The notes under the pieces are model-generated. The model was not told the origin of the DNA, did not search any database, and saw only the letters and a program-made list of their open reading frames with translations. Below are positions 1,994-8,726 of a DNA stretch of 40,391 nucleotides, piece by piece. The stretch covers positions 1-40,391 of the forward strand of contig CAUJEL010000054.1 of NCBI GenBank assembly GCA_963169875.1. The letters are read 5' to 3'. Made by a program: the position numbers and the translations under genes. The stretch's first letter is position 1, and every line of letters begins with the position of its first letter. This stretch comes from Candidatus Zhuqueibacterota bacterium (GTDB taxonomy: Bacteria; Zhuqueibacterota; Zhuqueibacteria; Residuimicrobiales; Residuimicrobiaceae).

Positions 1994-3619
1994 TTATTTC
2001 ACCCTGACAAACTCGATGCGCCGGTTCTGCGCCCGGCCCGCGGACGTCTTGTTGCTGGCCACCGGGAAGCGCGCGCCAAACCCCACGGCCGTCACACGTT
2101 CCGGCGCAATGCCCTTGCTGAGCAGATACTGACGCACCGCCTCGGCCCGCTTCTCGGACAAAATTTGGTTGACCGTCGCATCTCCGATGTTGTCGGTGTG
2201 ACCGCGTATTTCCACCACCGTCTGATCATTGAGAACCAGTCCGTTGGCAACCTCATCAAGAACGGGAAGAGATTCCGGGGTCAGTTCTGCCTTACCCGAA
2301 GCAAAGGTCACACCCTGCAACACCAGGGGCGTCTCAGCCGGACCACTCTCCTCCTGTGGTTTGAGCTGCAGCTCATCCGGACAGCCATCATCATCCTCGA
2401 ATCCGTTCATGGTCTCCGCTGCGCCGGGACAACGATCCCGTTCATCCGGAACCCCGTCGCCGTCGCTGTCGGCATCCGGACAGCCATCTTCGTCCAGATA
2501 GCCATTGATGGTTTCCGCTTGATCCGGACATTTATCAATGGCATCCACGATCAGATCCCCGTCATTGTCGAAATCAGGACAGCCGTTGCTGTCCTCCCAA
2601 CCATCCATATCCTCTGCTTCATTGGGACAGGCATCGAGCGCATCGACGATGCCATCCTGGTCATTATCGATGTCCGGGCAGCCATCGTTATCTTCAAAGC
2701 CATCCAGATCTTCAGGTTCGTTGGGACAGAGATCTTGTTCATCGGGAATGCCGTCTTCGTCATTATCCGGATCGGGCAGGCCATCGCCGTCGAGCCAGCC
2801 GTCCTTATCCTCCGATTGCAGCGGTGCCAGGTCGCAGACATCAGGGACACCATCCAGGTCATTATCGGGCTCCGGAGCACCGTCGCCATCCTGGAAACCA
2901 TCAAAATCTTCCGGACGCTCGGGATCGGCATCGAACTTGTCGAGCATGCCATCGCGGTCGCGATCGCGCAGGTATCCCCAATACCAGGTGAGTTGGGCGA
3001 TGCCCTGAAGCACCTGGTTATTGACGTCGTCATATCCGACATTATCCGTGCGCATCTGCAGCAGCGCAGAAAACCGGCCCTGCAAATCGAGCGAAAACGA
3101 AGGAGTGATGAACCATTCAATACCGACGCCCTGGTACAGGAGCGCGTTTTTTCGCAAACCGCTGACGCGCTGGCCCCAACGCAAAAGATTGTCGCTCCAG
3201 AACGAGCGTTGCTCATCGTCCTCGATAAATCGCAGATCCCAATAGAGTACGCCTGCACCCAGAGCTATATAGGGTTTGAGGCGGCCGCGCGCGACCGGCG
3301 TCAAACGCACGCCCAGGGTCAGCGGGAACAGGAAGGTGCGGTAGGGATCCGCGCTGTTTTTCTTGTAGCGGGACCCTTCGATAGCCGGTTTGAATCCTCC
3401 ATAGCCGGCGCTGGCCTCAAATTGCAGATACATGGAGGGCGCATAGCGCAATCCGACTCCGGAGACGACACCGAGCGCGGCGCGATCCGGTGTATCGCCG
3501 GCAAATTTTACCGCGCTGCTGTAGAGGCTAAATCCCTTTCCGGATTCCCAGATCTGCGCATTCAGGGGAAGCGTCGCCAATAGAAGCAGCAGGACAAGAA
3601 CGTTGCATCGCTTTAACAT
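1994..3619 (-). CDS. Outer-membrane protein with thrombospondin type 3 repeats and OmpA domain
   Basis: This 541-aa protein starts at ATG 3619, which gives a clean signal peptide (MLKRCNVLVLLLLL, cleavage near LNA); upstream in-frame codons add only a non-signal extension. Residues ~20-190 look like an OmpA-type beta-barrel. They are followed by about six acidic repeats of the DxDxDGxxDxxDxCP type, the calcium-binding thrombospondin type 3 pattern. The C-terminal ~110 residues are an OmpA/MotB peptidoglycan-binding domain (GHTDNIGD, then NQILSEKRAEAVRQYL and NRRIEF). The family anchors outer membrane to cell wall. The gene is monocistronic, lies downstream of the sigma-54 operon, and has a CRP-like palindrome upstream. 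Confidence 0.9.
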   Translation of the reverse strand: MLKRCNVLVLLLLLATLPLNAQIWESGKGFSLYSSAVKFAGDTPDRAALGVVSGVGLRYAPSMYLQFEASAGYGGFKPAIEGSRYKKNSADPYRTFLFPLTLGVRLTPVARGRLKPYIALGAGVLYWDLRFIEDDEQRSFWSDNLLRWGQRVSGLRKNALLYQGVGIEWFITPSFSLDLQGRFSALLQMRTDNVGYDDVNNQVLQGIAQLTWYWGYLRDRDRDGMLDKFDADPERPEDFDGFQDGDGAPEPDNDLDGVPDVCDLAPLQSEDKDGWLDGDGLPDPDNDEDGIPDEQDLCPNEPEDLDGFEDNDGCPDIDNDQDGIVDALDACPNEAEDMDGWEDSNGCPDFDNDGDLIVDAIDKCPDQAETINGYLDEDGCPDADSDGDGVPDERDRCPGAAETMNGFEDDDGCPDELQLKPQEESGPAETPLVLQGVTFASGKAELTPESLPVLDEVANGLVLNDQTVVEIRGHTDNIGDATVNQILSEKRAEAVRQYLLSKGIAPERVTAVGFGARFPVASNKTSAGRAQNRRIEFVRVK

Positions 3620-3664
3620 AATGAATCCCGGTTTTTTGATGGGTATTGTTAGCAAACTGGACAG

Positions 3665-3680
3665 TGTGATGGTACTCACA
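3665..3680. promoter_or_regulatory. CRP/FNR-type palindrome upstream of the OmpA-family gene
   Basis: TGTGATGGTACTCACA is an exact TGTGA-N6-TCACA palindrome, the half-site pattern bound by CRP-family regulators. It sits 46-61 bp upstream of the start at 3619. A 16-bp match could be chance. No regulator of that family lies in the window, and no convincing -10/-35 pair was found beside it. Confidence 0.4.
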
Positions 3681-3739
3681 GTAGTAAATACCACAAAAAT
3701 GCGGGAATGCGTAAACGGGCAGGAGTGAGAGCAGAAAAA

Positions 3740-5119
3740 TCAGTACTGAATTTCGTATTTTTTGATGCGATAGCGCAGCGTATCCAGGCTCAACCCAAGC
3801 AGACGTGCGGCACGGGTCTGATTCCCGCGGGTACGGCTCAGCGCCTGGAGGATGAGTCGCTTCTCCATATCATGGAGGGAGAGATCATCGGGAGGCACCA
3901 CGGGTTCGATCACTTCTTCGGGGAGTTGCTGGTCATGGTCGATAAGAAGGATATCGTGCGCCTCAATGATATCCTCATTGGCGAAGATGACGGCCCGCTC
4001 GATGACGTTGCGCAACTCTCGAATATTGCCCGGCCAGCGGTAGGCCAAAAGTTTGCGCTGCGCTTCGGGAGCGATGCTTTTAATCTTCTTCTTAAAATCG
4101 TACGCGTAAATATTCATGAAATGATCCGCCATGCGCAGAATATCGCCGCTCAATTCGCGCAGCGGCGGCAGACGCAGTCGCAGCACATTGAGGCGGTAGA
4201 AAAGGTCCAGCCTGAATTCCTTGCGTTCCACAGCATGCTGGAGGTCGTGGTTGGTGGCTGCGATGATCCGGGTCGTGACGGTCCGTTCCAGGGTGCTGCC
4301 GAGGCGGCGGAATTTTTTGGTTTCCAGAAAAGAGAGAAATTTGGCCTGCAGCGCGAGGGGCAGTTCGGCAATTTCATCCAGAAACAGGGTGCCCCCATCA
4401 GCTTCCTCCAGCAGTCCTTTTTTGGGCGAGACCGCATTGGTGAAAGCGCCTTTTTCATAACCGAAAATCTCCGACTCGATGAGATTGTCGGGTATGGACG
4501 CGCAGTTGACCTCAACAAAGGGTGCATTGGCCTGGGTGGAGTTGTTGTGTATCATGCGCGCGACGAGATTTTTACCCGTGCCGGTCTCCCCTTCCAGCAG
4601 CACGATCGAATTATGGTATTTGGCGATCTTGGTGACAAAATCTCGAATATGCTGGATTTGAATCGATTCGCCGATGATGGTGACGCCGCTGGAATGGGCC
4701 GCCCGTGTCAACGAGGACTGCAGCAGCAGGATTTCATAGCGCTGCTGTTGAATCTTCTGTTCAAGGTTGGTCTCATTGCTGGTTTCCTGAATGACCAGGA
4801 GGAGATTTTTCTCCCTGGCGGATATCTGTTTCGGCGAGGTCAGACTGAAGGTGTAATAGGAAATATCGCCGTCCTGATTGGGGCGGCCGATTTTTTCGAG
4901 TACGTATTTTTTGCGTTCACCTTTATACAGGGCGGCGATTTCGGATTCATTGCCCACGAATTCCGGGAACAGATCGAGCAGATGCGTCGTCACGCTATCC
5001 ATTTCAATGGGCATGACTTTTTTAAAATGGCGGCTGAGCTGAACCAGTTTCTGGTTTTCACTGAAAAGAGCGAAAACGATTTTCTTTTCCGCCAGAATAT
5101 GTTCAATGACTTCCAGCAC
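3740..5119 (-). CDS. Sigma-54-dependent transcriptional activator (EBP) with GAFTNA loop
   Basis: This 459-aa protein starts at GTG 5119, one nucleotide after the GTPase stop, with GAGGCGGAA as ribosome site. Residues 1-~115 look like a PAS-type sensory region; there is no receiver domain. The AAA+ core has Walker A GETGTGKN (177-184), Walker B GGTLFLDE (242-249) and the arginine-finger region FRLDLFYRL (302-310). The C-terminus carries a Fis-type helix-turn-helix (~425-455). Such proteins hydrolyse ATP to open sigma-54 promoters. The loop that contacts sigma-54, normally GAFTGA, reads GAFTNA (224-229), so activity may be altered. It is the last gene of an operon that itself has a perfect sigma-54 promoter, which suggests autoregulation. 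Confidence 0.93.
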   Translation of the reverse strand: MLEVIEHILAEKKIVFALFSENQKLVQLSRHFKKVMPIEMDSVTTHLLDLFPEFVGNESEIAALYKGERKKYVLEKIGRPNQDGDISYYTFSLTSPKQISAREKNLLLVIQETSNETNLEQKIQQQRYEILLLQSSLTRAAHSSGVTIIGESIQIQHIRDFVTKIAKYHNSIVLLEGETGTGKNLVARMIHNNSTQANAPFVEVNCASIPDNLIESEIFGYEKGAFTNAVSPKKGLLEEADGGTLFLDEIAELPLALQAKFLSFLETKKFRRLGSTLERTVTTRIIAATNHDLQHAVERKEFRLDLFYRLNVLRLRLPPLRELSGDILRMADHFMNIYAYDFKKKIKSIAPEAQRKLLAYRWPGNIRELRNVIERAVIFANEDIIEAHDILLIDHDQQLPEEVIEPVVPPDDLSLHDMEKRLILQALSRTRGNQTRAARLLGLSLDTLRYRIKKYEIQY

Positions 5120-5120
5120 G

Positions 5121-5654
5121 CTATTCCGCCTCGAGAATCATCTCTGCCAGCTTGTTAAAGGCCTTTTCAACATTGTCGCCGGATTTAGCACTGGTCATGA
5201 AACAGGGCACTTGATGGGATTTCGCAAACTGCCTGAACTCCTCTACCACAGGTCCTTCGGCTTCCACCAGATCGTACTTGTTGGCAATAAAGATGATTTT
5301 GCTGTCCGGGTTGGTCTCTTTGAACGGTTTCAGAAATACGTCCGGATTCTGAATGGACAGGGACCTGGACAGATCAAAGACCACGAGCGCGCCATTTGAA
5401 CCGCGAAAGTAGTTGCGGATGAGTTCATTGAACTTTTCGATATGAGCGAGATCCCACAGTATGAATTTAAAAGCAACGGCCTGCGATTTTTTCGCCAAAG
5501 TGACCGGCGGCATTTTTTTCTGTGTGACCTGAACCCCAATGGTGGAGAGATATTTTTCATCAAAAAGATTATAGACAAAGCGCCGCACCAGACTGGTTTT
5601 ACCAACCCCGAAAGAACCGAGCATGCAGATTTTTTTACTGACTTCGATGGTCAT
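5121..5654 (-). CDS. Ras-like small GTPase with degenerate G3 motif
   Basis: This 177-aa protein is the length of a single Ras-fold domain. G1 is GSFGVGKT (13-20), followed by a candidate G2 threonine (38). G4 is NKYD (125-128) and G5 is SAK (155-157). G3, normally WDTAGQE, reads WDLAHIEKF (67-75): the invariant glycine and the catalytic glutamine position are both changed. This predicts slow intrinsic hydrolysis or dependence on a partner. The phosphate-binding and guanine-specificity motifs are intact, so nucleotide binding is likely. Prokaryotic Ras-like GTPases (MglA, Rup types) usually work with Roadblock/LC7 partners, and the adjacent upstream gene has such a region. The ATG lies 4 nt after the preceding stop. 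Confidence 0.9.
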   Translation of the reverse strand: MTIEVSKKICMLGSFGVGKTSLVRRFVYNLFDEKYLSTIGVQVTQKKMPPVTLAKKSQAVAFKFILWDLAHIEKFNELIRNYFRGSNGALVVFDLSRSLSIQNPDVFLKPFKETNPDSKIIFIANKYDLVEAEGPVVEEFRQFAKSHQVPCFMTSAKSGDNVEKAFNKLAEMILEAE

Positions 5655-5660
5655 GGATGA

Positions 5661-7454
5661 TTAATTGCTCCCCAAAAGAAGATCAAATTCGACCCGGTAG
5701 TTCGGCGTCTTGCTCTTCTGCTGAATAGTTTCTTCGACGAGTTTTGGTGATTTATCACCATACGAAACAGGTATCACAACATCTCCCGCGATATTCATTT
5801 CCGCGAGTTTGCCTAAAACCGCATCCAGCCGTTCTTTGGATAAAAGAACGTTACGGGAAAAATCCTTGTAGTCGTTGGCAAATCCACGCACCACCAATTT
5901 GGCACCTTCCCTGGCAAAAACGCGATAGACCGCCACCGCCGCTTCGAGCTTGTTGAGCTGATCCGGGGGGAATTCGGCCGATCTGGCGGCAAATTGAATG
6001 GCGTTTTCACGCAGGAAACTGCGCACCTCCACCAATTCGCTGGCATTGAGTACGACCAGGTTGTTGGTGACCACGCGTATCCCATGCACTTCGCTCAGCA
6101 GCAGTCCGATATCGCGTTTAAGACGGGCATCGGGGACAAAACCATGGATGATCAACGCCTCCCCTTCCACCACCAGTTTCGGTCTGAAATAGGGCAGGCT
6201 GTCATAAGCCGCCAGCCGGCGCTGCACCGAAGCAAGGATTTCTTCCTCTGTGGCCGGAAGAACAATGACCTGTATCTGGTCATCAATCTGACGCACGCCA
6301 GGTACACGCTGGATGAGGCTGTCAATTCTGGCCTTGACCGCGAAACTGCTGACCTGTCCCCCCAGCACAACTTTTCCATCATCACAATGATAGGATAACT
6401 TTTGTTCCTGCAAATGGGGAACCGCTGTCAATTTTTCTCCAATGGCGCTTTGCAATTTATAATCACGCCAGTAACCCGGCAGAAAAACGAAGCCAATGAA
6501 CATCAGCACCAGGAAAACAGTGAAAAAGAACAGATACAGCAAATAAGGCTTGGATTTCTTCTCCTCCGCGGCTTCCGCAACCCCATTATAAGTATCCATG
6601 AAACCGCGCAGGGGACTGGAAATATTGACAAAATCGCTCAGATCCCCATTGAACTGGCGCAGGGCGCGATAATAGCGGTTGTAGATTTTCTGGTTAAGCC
6701 GGCCAACATCCTTGTAAAAATTATCCGGTTCATAGCCTGAGATGACCACGGCGAGATACGCGTACCGCCCCAAATCAAGAAGAATTTTCGATTGGCCGTA
6801 GTGGATCTCCTGCAAGTCATGATCATGCGATTGAAACGCATGCGCGACAAAGTCACGAATGGCCGTGAGCATGCCGCTGATAAGTTCCTGGTCAACGCCG
6901 TTGCCATTTTCATGCTCATCGGCGGATACATGCGCGATGAGAAGGCCGGTCTCGGAGTGGATGACAAATATCTGTTCGATCCGAAACGGCAAAGATCCTT
7001 TGATCAAAAGATCGGCACGCTTCATGCCGAGTAATTGCGCCTGCAGCCAGGTCGGCAGAAATGACCGGCGAATGGTATTTTCAATCTTTTTATTGACCGA
7101 AGAGAACTGATCGCTCATCGCCTCGGCGACTGACTTGCGAATGGTCTTGCCAATGATGGGATAGAGCGCGTCAACGACTTCTTCACGAGTTTCGACCACC
7201 TGGCGTTTAATGGCTTCACCCATGACAGGTGCCAGCGCTTCGGCCACATCTTCCTTGTTATCGCTGATGGTGCGTTCCAGCAAATCCGTGAGCAGCGGAT
7301 TCAAAGAAGCGATCATCGCTTCTTTATCGGCGAATTGAGAGCGCAGGTGCTCCAATTCGGAGCGTATGCGCGCGAAATCGCTGTCCGCTCCCAAAAGAAG
7401 ATCACGCAACCGCTGCAATTCTGCGTCGGCGTTTTTGGCTTTATTTTTATTCAT
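5661..7454 (-). CDS. Membrane protein: coiled coil, Roadblock-like region, TM, BON repeats, OmpA-like C-terminus
   Basis: This 597-aa protein is not a recognised named family. The N-terminus (1-~130) is charged and helical, probably coiled coil. Residues ~158-245 (RIEQIFVIHSETGLLIAHVS, later YAYLAVVISG) resemble a Roadblock/LC7 fold. One strong membrane helix spans ~304-327. After it come two BON-like segments (~333-395 and ~405-470), then a region (~480-597) resembling OmpA/MotB (VVRGFAND, LLSKERLDAVLGKL, NYRVEFDL). The layout predicts a cytoplasmic GTPase-facing half and a periplasmic half reaching lipid or cell wall. It lies between the coiled-coil gene and the GTPase, with 6- and 15-nt gaps. 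Domain calls are by eye; TM and BON are firmest. Confidence 0.8.
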   Translation of the reverse strand: MNKNKAKNADAELQRLRDLLLGADSDFARIRSELEHLRSQFADKEAMIASLNPLLTDLLERTISDNKEDVAEALAPVMGEAIKRQVVETREEVVDALYPIIGKTIRKSVAEAMSDQFSSVNKKIENTIRRSFLPTWLQAQLLGMKRADLLIKGSLPFRIEQIFVIHSETGLLIAHVSADEHENGNGVDQELISGMLTAIRDFVAHAFQSHDHDLQEIHYGQSKILLDLGRYAYLAVVISGYEPDNFYKDVGRLNQKIYNRYYRALRQFNGDLSDFVNISSPLRGFMDTYNGVAEAAEEKKSKPYLLYLFFFTVFLVLMFIGFVFLPGYWRDYKLQSAIGEKLTAVPHLQEQKLSYHCDDGKVVLGGQVSSFAVKARIDSLIQRVPGVRQIDDQIQVIVLPATEEEILASVQRRLAAYDSLPYFRPKLVVEGEALIIHGFVPDARLKRDIGLLLSEVHGIRVVTNNLVVLNASELVEVRSFLRENAIQFAARSAEFPPDQLNKLEAAVAVYRVFAREGAKLVVRGFANDYKDFSRNVLLSKERLDAVLGKLAEMNIAGDVVIPVSYGDKSPKLVEETIQQKSKTPNYRVEFDLLLGSN

Positions 7455-7469
7455 AACCCCAGAGTTTAT

Positions 7470-7865
7470 TTATTCTGCACGCAAATTTCGAATCCGCATC
7501 GCCCAATCTTCAAAGGCGCGAGCGACCATTTCACGGTCGGTTTTGGCATCCTGGAGTTGGGCAATCTTTTGATTCAGATCTTTGTCCAACAACTTCAGAA
7601 GGTCATGCAGTTGCGTCCAGCTTGCATCACTCTGGGTGAAGCGCTCCGTGAGCGCTGATATTTTTAGATTTGCCTCGGCAAGGCGTTTTTCAGCTTCAAT
7701 CAACTTGGCATCGAGATCGCGCAAACCCTGGAGAAAGGTATTCATGCGCCGTTCCCACTCCGCGGCTTTCTCGCCAAAAAGAATCTCACGAATTTGCTCG
7801 ATGCTGCTCTTGGTTCTGAGATTCAGCTTTTCCAAGTCGGCTGGATTGACCGTTTCGTCCACCAT
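7470..7865 (-). CDS. Small coiled-coil protein, first gene of the sigma-54 operon
   Basis: This 131-aa protein has no recognised family. Heptad-like, charged helix covers most of it (about residues 15-125), with no signal peptide, membrane segment or cysteine cluster. ATG 7865 was chosen because AGGAGG lies 8 nt upstream; a TTG two codons earlier is too close to that site. It resembles the N-terminal helical part of the next gene product in composition, so the two may form a mixed coiled coil (inference). It is the first gene after the sigma-54 promoter, with a leader of about 160 nt. Confidence 0.8.
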   Translation of the reverse strand: MVDETVNPADLEKLNLRTKSSIEQIREILFGEKAAEWERRMNTFLQGLRDLDAKLIEAEKRLAEANLKISALTERFTQSDASWTQLHDLLKLLDKDLNQKIAQLQDAKTDREMVARAFEDWAMRIRNLRAE

Positions 7866-8037
7866 GCCCAAACCCTCCTGTTAAAACCACGCAATCCATG
7901 GGGCTTTGTAACCTAAATGTCACACCCTCAGACCCGACTGTCACAATTTCATGCAAATCTTTATCCGCCAAGAGTAGTCTATTGTCTTTATTAATAACAT
8001 ATTAAATGCAATTTATACTCTGCGCGGAATACAAAAA

Positions 8038-8054
8038 TGCAATTCTCGTGCCAG
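8038..8054 (-). promoter_or_regulatory. Sigma-54 (-24/-12) promoter
   Basis: The minus strand reads CTGGCACGAGAATTGCA, which matches the sigma-54 consensus YTGGCACGrNNNTTGCW at every fixed position. The GG (-24) and GC (-12) elements are separated by exactly 10 nt. Transcription would start near 8026 and run leftward into the coiled-coil/GTPase operon, whose last gene encodes a sigma-54 activator. Confidence 0.85.
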
Positions 8055-8070: not shown

Positions 8071-8114
8071 CTATAAGCTGCCGGACCACGGTGCCAATCC
8101 TGGTGCCTATAAGC
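8071..8114. repeat. CTATAAGC direct repeats, candidate activator sites
   Basis: CTATAAGC occurs at 8071-8078 and again at 8107-8114, 36 bp apart. They lie about 45-90 bp upstream of the predicted sigma-54 start, where enhancer-binding proteins can bind. The first copy overlaps a palindromic TATAGGCTATA. Binding is speculative. Confidence 0.3.
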
Positions 8115-8246
8115 AAGTACTTATTTTTAATAATATAAAAAGAAAATTTTCCAGAAGCAAGCAAGATTCTTGAAGTTAGCTAAAATTTCACTTGCTCTTG
8201 ATTATAGAATGGCCTAACTTTTCATACATCAGACAGGAGAGCATTC

Positions 8247-8726
8247 ATGGACCTTTTACAACTCTTCATTTTATTGATCATCATCGGGTTCGTTCTTTTC
8301 TTCGGCGTGACGATATTCTGGCGCAGAAAAAAGAAAGCCCGGCCTGTGGAAGCCACAAAACTGATGCTGGTGGCGGTCCGGCGCCGCCAGTCGGGCATTG
8401 CGCACGTGATGGAACTGCCCGCTGAAGCCCAGACCCAGTTGCTGAAATCCTTGGAAAGCCAGTGGCGCATCGTCAACAGCCGTTGGCTGGGGTATTGCCG
8501 CTCCATCGAAGGTTTTGTCAGCGATGCCAGCGGCCTGGCTGCGCCCGGCTCTGAAGACTGGCGCATTCTTTACCTGTATGAAATCAATGATTATGATCAT
8601 TTCCGCGATTGTGTGAAAATTTTCGAGAGCGAAGAATATGCCCTGCTACGCCAACACCTGGAAGTGCGCATGATTTGCGGTGAATCGATTCAAGACATGA
8701 CCGGAAAACTGCAGCGCATTTACTGA
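8247..8726 (+). CDS. Small membrane-anchored protein of unknown function
   Basis: This 159-aa protein has an N-terminal membrane helix (about residues 4-25) followed by a basic stop-transfer stretch (WRRKKKAR), so the ~130-residue remainder should face the cytoplasm. CAGGAGAG before ATG is a good ribosome site. The soluble part has no motif I recognise; late stretches such as WRILYLYEINDYDHFRDCVKIF suggest a compact alpha/beta fold. It is divergent from the GTPase operon and overlaps the convergent zinc-ribbon gene by 7 bp. A role with the GTPase module is possible only by position. Confidence 0.75.
   Translation: MDLLQLFILLIIIGFVLFFGVTIFWRRKKKARPVEATKLMLVAVRRRQSGIAHVMELPAEAQTQLLKSLESQWRIVNSRWLGYCRSIEGFVSDASGLAAPGSEDWRILYLYEINDYDHFRDCVKIFESEEYALLRQHLEVRMICGESIQDMTGKLQRIY

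Follow-up and report, generated by a model that had tools for sequence, protein, structure and literature searches.

A conserved sigma-54 promoter element upstream of a Ras-like GTPase operon with a sigma-54 activator as its predicted output

The question raised by this locus is whether a short element resembling a sigma-54 promoter drives the operon that it faces, and what kind of system that operon encodes. Within the window analysed here, a continuous stretch of 40,391 nucleotides (nt), the element CTGGCACGAGAATTGCA is read on the minus strand, with GG at 8052-8051, GC at 8040-8039 and 10 nt between them, and fits the consensus TGGCACG-N4-TTGCA. A sequence-only reading of the window had described it as a consensus-perfect promoter; the element is present exactly as quoted there, and both the fixed consensus positions and the 10-nt GG-GC spacing were confirmed on the minus strand. 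It is intergenic and sits approximately 160 nt ahead of a compact four-gene operon, with gaps between the genes of at most approximately 15 nt; the outer-membrane protein gene that follows is possibly co-transcribed with these four.

8038..8054, minus strand (read 8054 to 8038): highly probable -24/-12 sigma-54 promoter CTGGCACGAGAATTGCA, by consensus match and conservation
7470..7865, minus strand: gene 1, small hydrophilic coiled-coil-like protein; ATG at 7865, ORF possible from TTG at 7871
5661..7454, minus strand: gene 2, predicted longin domain (residues 158-292), transmembrane (TM) helix (approximately 303-325), BON domains and OmpA-like peptidoglycan-binding domain
5121..5654, minus strand: gene 3, Rup-type Ras-like small GTPase
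3740..5119, minus strand: gene 4, sigma-54 enhancer-binding protein (EBP) with PAS, AAA+ (GAFTNA) and Fis-type HTH
1994..3694, minus strand: OmpA/thrombospondin type-3 outer-membrane protein gene, after the operon

Whether scanned with TGGCACN5TTGC at zero mismatches or with the degenerate pattern TGGYRYRN4TTGCW, the window contained CTGGCACGAGAATTGCA as its only match. Because 0.31 matches to the degenerate pattern are expected and at least one occurred in 27 of 100 shuffles, a single perfect match in 40 kb is not improbable by itself. The genome-wide scan for further -24/-12 sites that the earlier reading had proposed was carried out over 5.0 Mb in 215 contigs and gave 21 strict sites against 10 for a reversed-pattern control, suggesting that approximately half of the strict sites of the genome arise by chance and that such a site is informative rather than proof. 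Approximately half of 15 other strict sites that we inspected were intergenic with an ORF start shortly downstream, and the remainder lay within ORFs, in agreement with the expectation if half are real. Strict sites at four loci of the same genome (L088, L089, L095 and L098) are intergenic and 28–78 nt upstream of ORFs, among which are a lipoprotein-like and a TPR-like protein; the one in L089 is directly behind an EBP gene.

What raises CTGGCACGAGAATTGCA above the chance level is its conservation in G001, the sole comparison genome of the same genus, whose orthologous proteins are approximately 79% identical. The counterpart in G001, TGGCACGTGAATTGCA, keeps 16 of the 17 promoter positions, and its distance from the orthologous gene 1 is almost unchanged. 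Identity to G001 falls just downstream of the promoter, to 5–12 of 20 positions (approximately 25–50% in the 80 bp there), and is high again upstream (8105-8169) and near the start codon. Within a different family of the same order, G006 has an independent full match, TGGTATACAAATTGCA, at a comparable place, and G013 has a one-mismatch match, GGGTATGGATTTTGCA, at a similar distance from the operon. A uniform scan of approximately 440 bp upstream of each of 29 operons of this type (EBP-type Rup operons, described below) yielded 3 full consensus matches where shuffles predict 0.02, and 4 matches with at most one non-core mismatch where 0.23 are expected; upstream of 67 Rup operons whose outputs are of other kinds, many of them from cyanobacteria and Chloroflexota, the full sigma-54 consensus was not found. 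Two of the three full matches come from same-genus relatives, so they represent two independent occurrences. Judged by sequence comparison, the promoter is conserved in the genus and in one further family of the order, whereas most of the class lacks it. In the G001 assembly the EBP gene (L062:8098-9365) is split over frames, through sequencing error or decay, and conservation of the promoter in that genome therefore does not prove its use by an intact EBP. The gene-2 and EBP genes of G043 (L072:3195-6867) carry in-frame stops, which may likewise reflect sequencing error or decay.

The genome search also recovered an intact rpoN, the absence of which the sequence-only reading had named as the observation that would speak against a promoter; it is a single ORF of 470 amino acids with the canonical RpoN box ARRTVAKYRE. 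Together with the conservation in G001 and the second full match in G006, it upholds the earlier claim of a sigma-54 promoter facing an operon with its own activator gene. The competing possibility is that the resemblance to a sigma-54 promoter is fortuitous and that a sigma-70-type promoter, perhaps in 7907-7954, drives the operon. That possibility draws on the approximately ten strict genome matches expected by chance and the shuffled windows with at least one match, and on the position of the conserved block 7907-7954, which is closer to gene 1; it is hard to reconcile with the site in G001, whose sole change falls at a free spacer position, with the full match at the equivalent place in G006 and the excess over shuffles in the 29 upstream regions, and with a sigma-70 scan of the intergenic region that returned no candidate on the minus strand. 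We regard a chance resemblance as very improbable and conclude that 8038-8054 is very probably a real sigma-54 promoter.

Transcription from this promoter is predicted to start near 8027, approximately 12 nt past the GC, which would give the following leader.

7866..8027, minus strand: predicted 5′ leader of approximately 162 nt, with ribosome-binding site GGAGGG at 7878-7873

At several other sigma-54 sites in the genome the ORF begins 28–90 nt past the -24 element, and the leader here is longer. Its distal part, at approximately 7907-7954, is conserved relative to G001 and the proximal part is not; the conserved stretch carries TGTGACAGTCGG and AGGTTACA on the minus strand. The leader had no match in Rfam and folded no better than shuffled sequences, and a riboswitch or structured leader was therefore rejected.

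To what kind of system do the four genes belong? As described by Wuichet and Sogaard-Andersen (2014, PMC4316618), Group 1 Rup modules combine a GTPase gene with genes for an output protein, a coiled-coil protein and a protein made of a conserved domain, a TM segment and OmpA. Typical output proteins are diguanylate cyclase/phosphodiesterases and histidine kinases, and they share a conserved N-terminal region with an invariant glutamine (PMC4316618). The operon resembles these modules in having counterparts of the four components, namely a predicted coiled-coil protein, the TM-OmpA protein, a GTPase that lacks the G3 glutamine and an output protein whose N-terminal domain carries conserved glutamine. 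Pfam identified Ras in gene 3, BON in gene 2, and the sigma-54 AAA+, lid and Fis-HTH domains in gene 4; the OmpA domain of gene 2 scored just below the Pfam cut-off by sequence, and its fold match is clear. Gene 3 has the G1, G4 and G5 motifs and no glutamine at the catalytic G3 position, and in an alignment of 92 GTPase sequences glutamine is not among the common residues of that column. Homologs of gene 1 precede gene 2 in nearly all loci, and its coiled coil is predicted from sequence and from a sub-threshold match to HAUS1. The same arrangement of four genes is seen throughout the class, except that one family (L078, L079, L084 and L085) keeps genes 1 and 2 with no Rup GTPase or EBP nearby.

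The operon differs from the described Group 1 modules in its output, which is a sigma-54 EBP rather than a GGDEF-EAL protein or a histidine kinase; since those outputs are typical and not obligatory, we class it as a Group 1 Rup variant. The loop of the gene 4 protein reads GAFTNA, and GAFTNA or GAFTDA is found through most of the family; Desulfovibrio EBPs vary the same position of the GAFTGA loop and remain competent (PMC4641369). Of the 3121 ORFs in the loci, a profile of the N-terminal 140 residues of the EBP matched 101, each of them within 6.5 kb of a Rup gene; most are kinase-like outputs, the prevailing kind in the cyanobacterial and Chloroflexota loci. Alignment of this domain revealed near-invariant E53, E58, Y88, Q121, Q125 and E129 and an invariant G56, and its structure is predicted to be a PAS fold (pLDDT 93), with matches to PAS and LOV structures. 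By sequence, then, the EBP and Rup-linked kinases have homologous N-terminal PAS domains, and this shared domain indicates that the EBP is a Rup module output whose effector end has been exchanged. EBP-type outputs were found in Calditrichota-like genomes, with one further case in an Ignavibacteriae record (L161). We hold with high confidence that the operon is a Rup module with an EBP output, which would give the module direct control of transcription. The 2014 survey listed no experimentally characterized Rup GTPase (PMC4316618), and our literature search found no later functional study of one; the same search, which took in the main text of PMC4316618, found no GTPase-linked EBP.

The conserved domain of the TM-OmpA proteins, unnamed in PMC4316618 (where the word 'longin' has 0 occurrences), is a predicted longin domain in gene 2. 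Residues 158-292 of the model matched the longin structures of Sec22b (Z 13.6 over 125 residues), VAMP7 (12.8) and Ykt6 (12.3), as well as Fuzzy in its complex with Rab23 (12.6), Mon1-Ccz1 (11.6–11.7) and an Asgard Roadblock-longin protein (11.2), and an independent Foldseek search matched it to Mon1-Ccz1 with Ypt7 (E 8e-4). The pLDDT of the longin model is approximately 57–85 for most of the domain, with one block near 47, and confidence is low over the N-terminal 130 residues of the P0002 model. The cytoplasmic part of gene 2 is thus predicted from its model to be a longin domain, with the fold of eukaryotic Rab regulators. Roadblock/longin dimers are platforms for small GTPases and act mainly as exchange factors (PMC10933270), and from operon linkage we infer that the longin domain may serve the GTPase as an exchange factor or as some other kind of partner. 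The likeness to Mon1-Ccz1 and to CPLANE (Fuzzy-Inturned) lies in the longin fold, which is predicted on the side of gene 2 (Z 11.6–12.6), whereas sequence identity is very low (8–12%) and gene 2 has just one longin domain, carried by a bacterial envelope protein, to which the proposed exchange role would fall. A small GTPase similarly shares its signalling operon with a Roadblock/longin-like partner in MglA/MglB and in the actinobacterial conservon of GTPase, Roadblock protein and kinase (PMC4316618), but no separate Roadblock protein was found here, the longin-like domain is fused to a BON/OmpA membrane protein and the output is an EBP.

We then considered which activator would act on the promoter. 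The genome encodes approximately 27 proteins with full EBP domains, so that activation by the operon's own EBP is plausible and unproven. An EBP gene next to a sigma-54 promoter commonly encodes the regulator of that promoter. Co-location of an EBP gene with a sigma-54 promoter has likewise been used to assign regulators in Desulfovibrio (PMC4641369). Under the main alternative reading, the sigma-54 promoter is genuine and is driven by one of the approximately 26 EBPs besides gene 4, for example in a nutrient response, and the module's own EBP controls targets elsewhere. No sigma-54 promoter could be recognised at the Rup-EBP operon of most relatives, so that there the EBP must act elsewhere, and because the promoter precedes only 3–4 of the 29 EBP-type operons, all from one order, self-activation is not general to the module. 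Sigma-54 sites elsewhere in the related loci were considered as EBP targets and set aside as few and inconsistent. Set against regulation by another EBP are the general habit of EBPs to regulate the promoters beside them and, in the region upstream of the promoter, a dyad of suitable size at the usual distance that is nearly unique in both genomes. We therefore consider another EBP an unlikely driver, and on balance it is the operon's own EBP that probably acts on this promoter.

8071..8078, plus strand: CTATAAGC repeat, second copy, lost in G001
8107..8114, plus strand: CTATAAGC repeat, conserved copy, overlapping the dyad and kept in G001
8109..8124, no strand: candidate activator-binding dyad ATAAGTACTTGCTTAT, 16 bp, 7-2-7 with one mismatch
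8105..8169, no strand: conserved upstream block of 65 bp, between the divergent gene and the promoter
8247..8726, plus strand: divergent gene sharing the intergenic region, with an N-terminal TM helix

The earlier reading had proposed two CTATAAGC repeats as possible activator sites. Both copies exist with the 36-bp spacing given (2 found against 0.41 expected), and the copy at 8107-8114 is conserved within the dyad; the idea of a pair of sites was rejected, as the copy at 8071-8078 is lost in G001. The dyad includes most of the conserved copy, becomes a perfect 7-2-7 palindrome, ATAAGCACTTGCTTAT, in G001, and is placed approximately 57–73 bp upstream from the -24 GG, a distance typical of Desulfovibrio EBP sites, most of which fall in this range (PMC4641369). 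With at most one mismatch it is one of only two such sites in its own genome, and it is the only perfect one in G001. As a guide to further targets it was uninformative: the own-genome count of dyad sites equalled that of the reversed-pattern control, with none beside a good sigma-54 site. A single weak pairing of dyad and sigma-54 site was seen in G001 (L198). Conservation of the dyad stops at the genus, and no common dyad was detectable over the class; one shared across EBP-type operons was rejected (5 against 2.1 expected, with differing sequences). We accordingly treat 8109-8124 as a candidate EBP-binding site only, and it could instead belong to the divergent gene.

The surrounding block 8105-8169 is identical to G001 at 62 of 65 positions, compared with 68% over the whole region, and is possibly an activator or bending region, or a promoter of the divergent gene. 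That block and dyad serve the divergent gene and have no relation to the sigma-54 promoter is a reading that we take seriously while thinking it doubtful. Five genomes of the order have the divergent gene, which has no Pfam match, alongside this operon, and the block lies between the two; yet the scan found no sigma-70-like site for that gene in the block, and G006 also has a GCA/TGC dyad approximately 70 bp upstream of its sigma-54 site, though with different spacing.

The explanation that we favour, and consider fairly likely, is a sigma-54 promoter that drives a Rup module with an EBP output and is self-activating in this lineage. Sigma-54 RNA polymerase would bind 8054-8038 as an inactive closed complex, start near 8027 and transcribe the four genes. 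The gene-2 protein, anchored to peptidoglycan through its OmpA and BON domains in the periplasm, would sense the state of the envelope, and its cytoplasmic longin domain would set the nucleotide state of the Ras-like GTPase through a presumed contact. The GTPase, with the coiled-coil protein, would then engage the PAS domain of the EBP, again by a presumed contact, and the released AAA+ ring would hydrolyse ATP and open sigma-54 promoters, including its own, from the dyad at 8109-8124. With the EBP's own operon under a sigma-54 promoter, positive feedback would result in this genus. The signalling steps beyond the gene content are conjectural, and the complete transmembrane G-protein pathway, from peptidoglycan-anchored longin protein to Ras-like GTPase to EBP through PAS with amplification of its own operon, is a tentative proposal.

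The proposed circuit is akin to known sigma-54 systems, namely those of Desulfovibrio (PMC4641369), Psp and NorR, in its -24/-12 element, its AAA+ activator with Fis-type HTH, the candidate upstream palindrome and the proposed autoregulation. It differs from them in its input, a PAS domain common to GTPase-linked kinases in place of the known types of receiver, GAF or small-ligand domain.

Taken alone the promoter is ordinary; what makes it important is the operon that it precedes, a variant form of an uncharacterized GTPase module with an output that is readable as transcription. Rup modules with kinase or c-di-GMP outputs offer no obvious read-out, whereas with an EBP output beside its own sigma-54 promoter, promoter activity would report the state of the GTPase directly. 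Such a reporter read-out would make the roles of Rup GTPases and of the bacterial longin domain testable.
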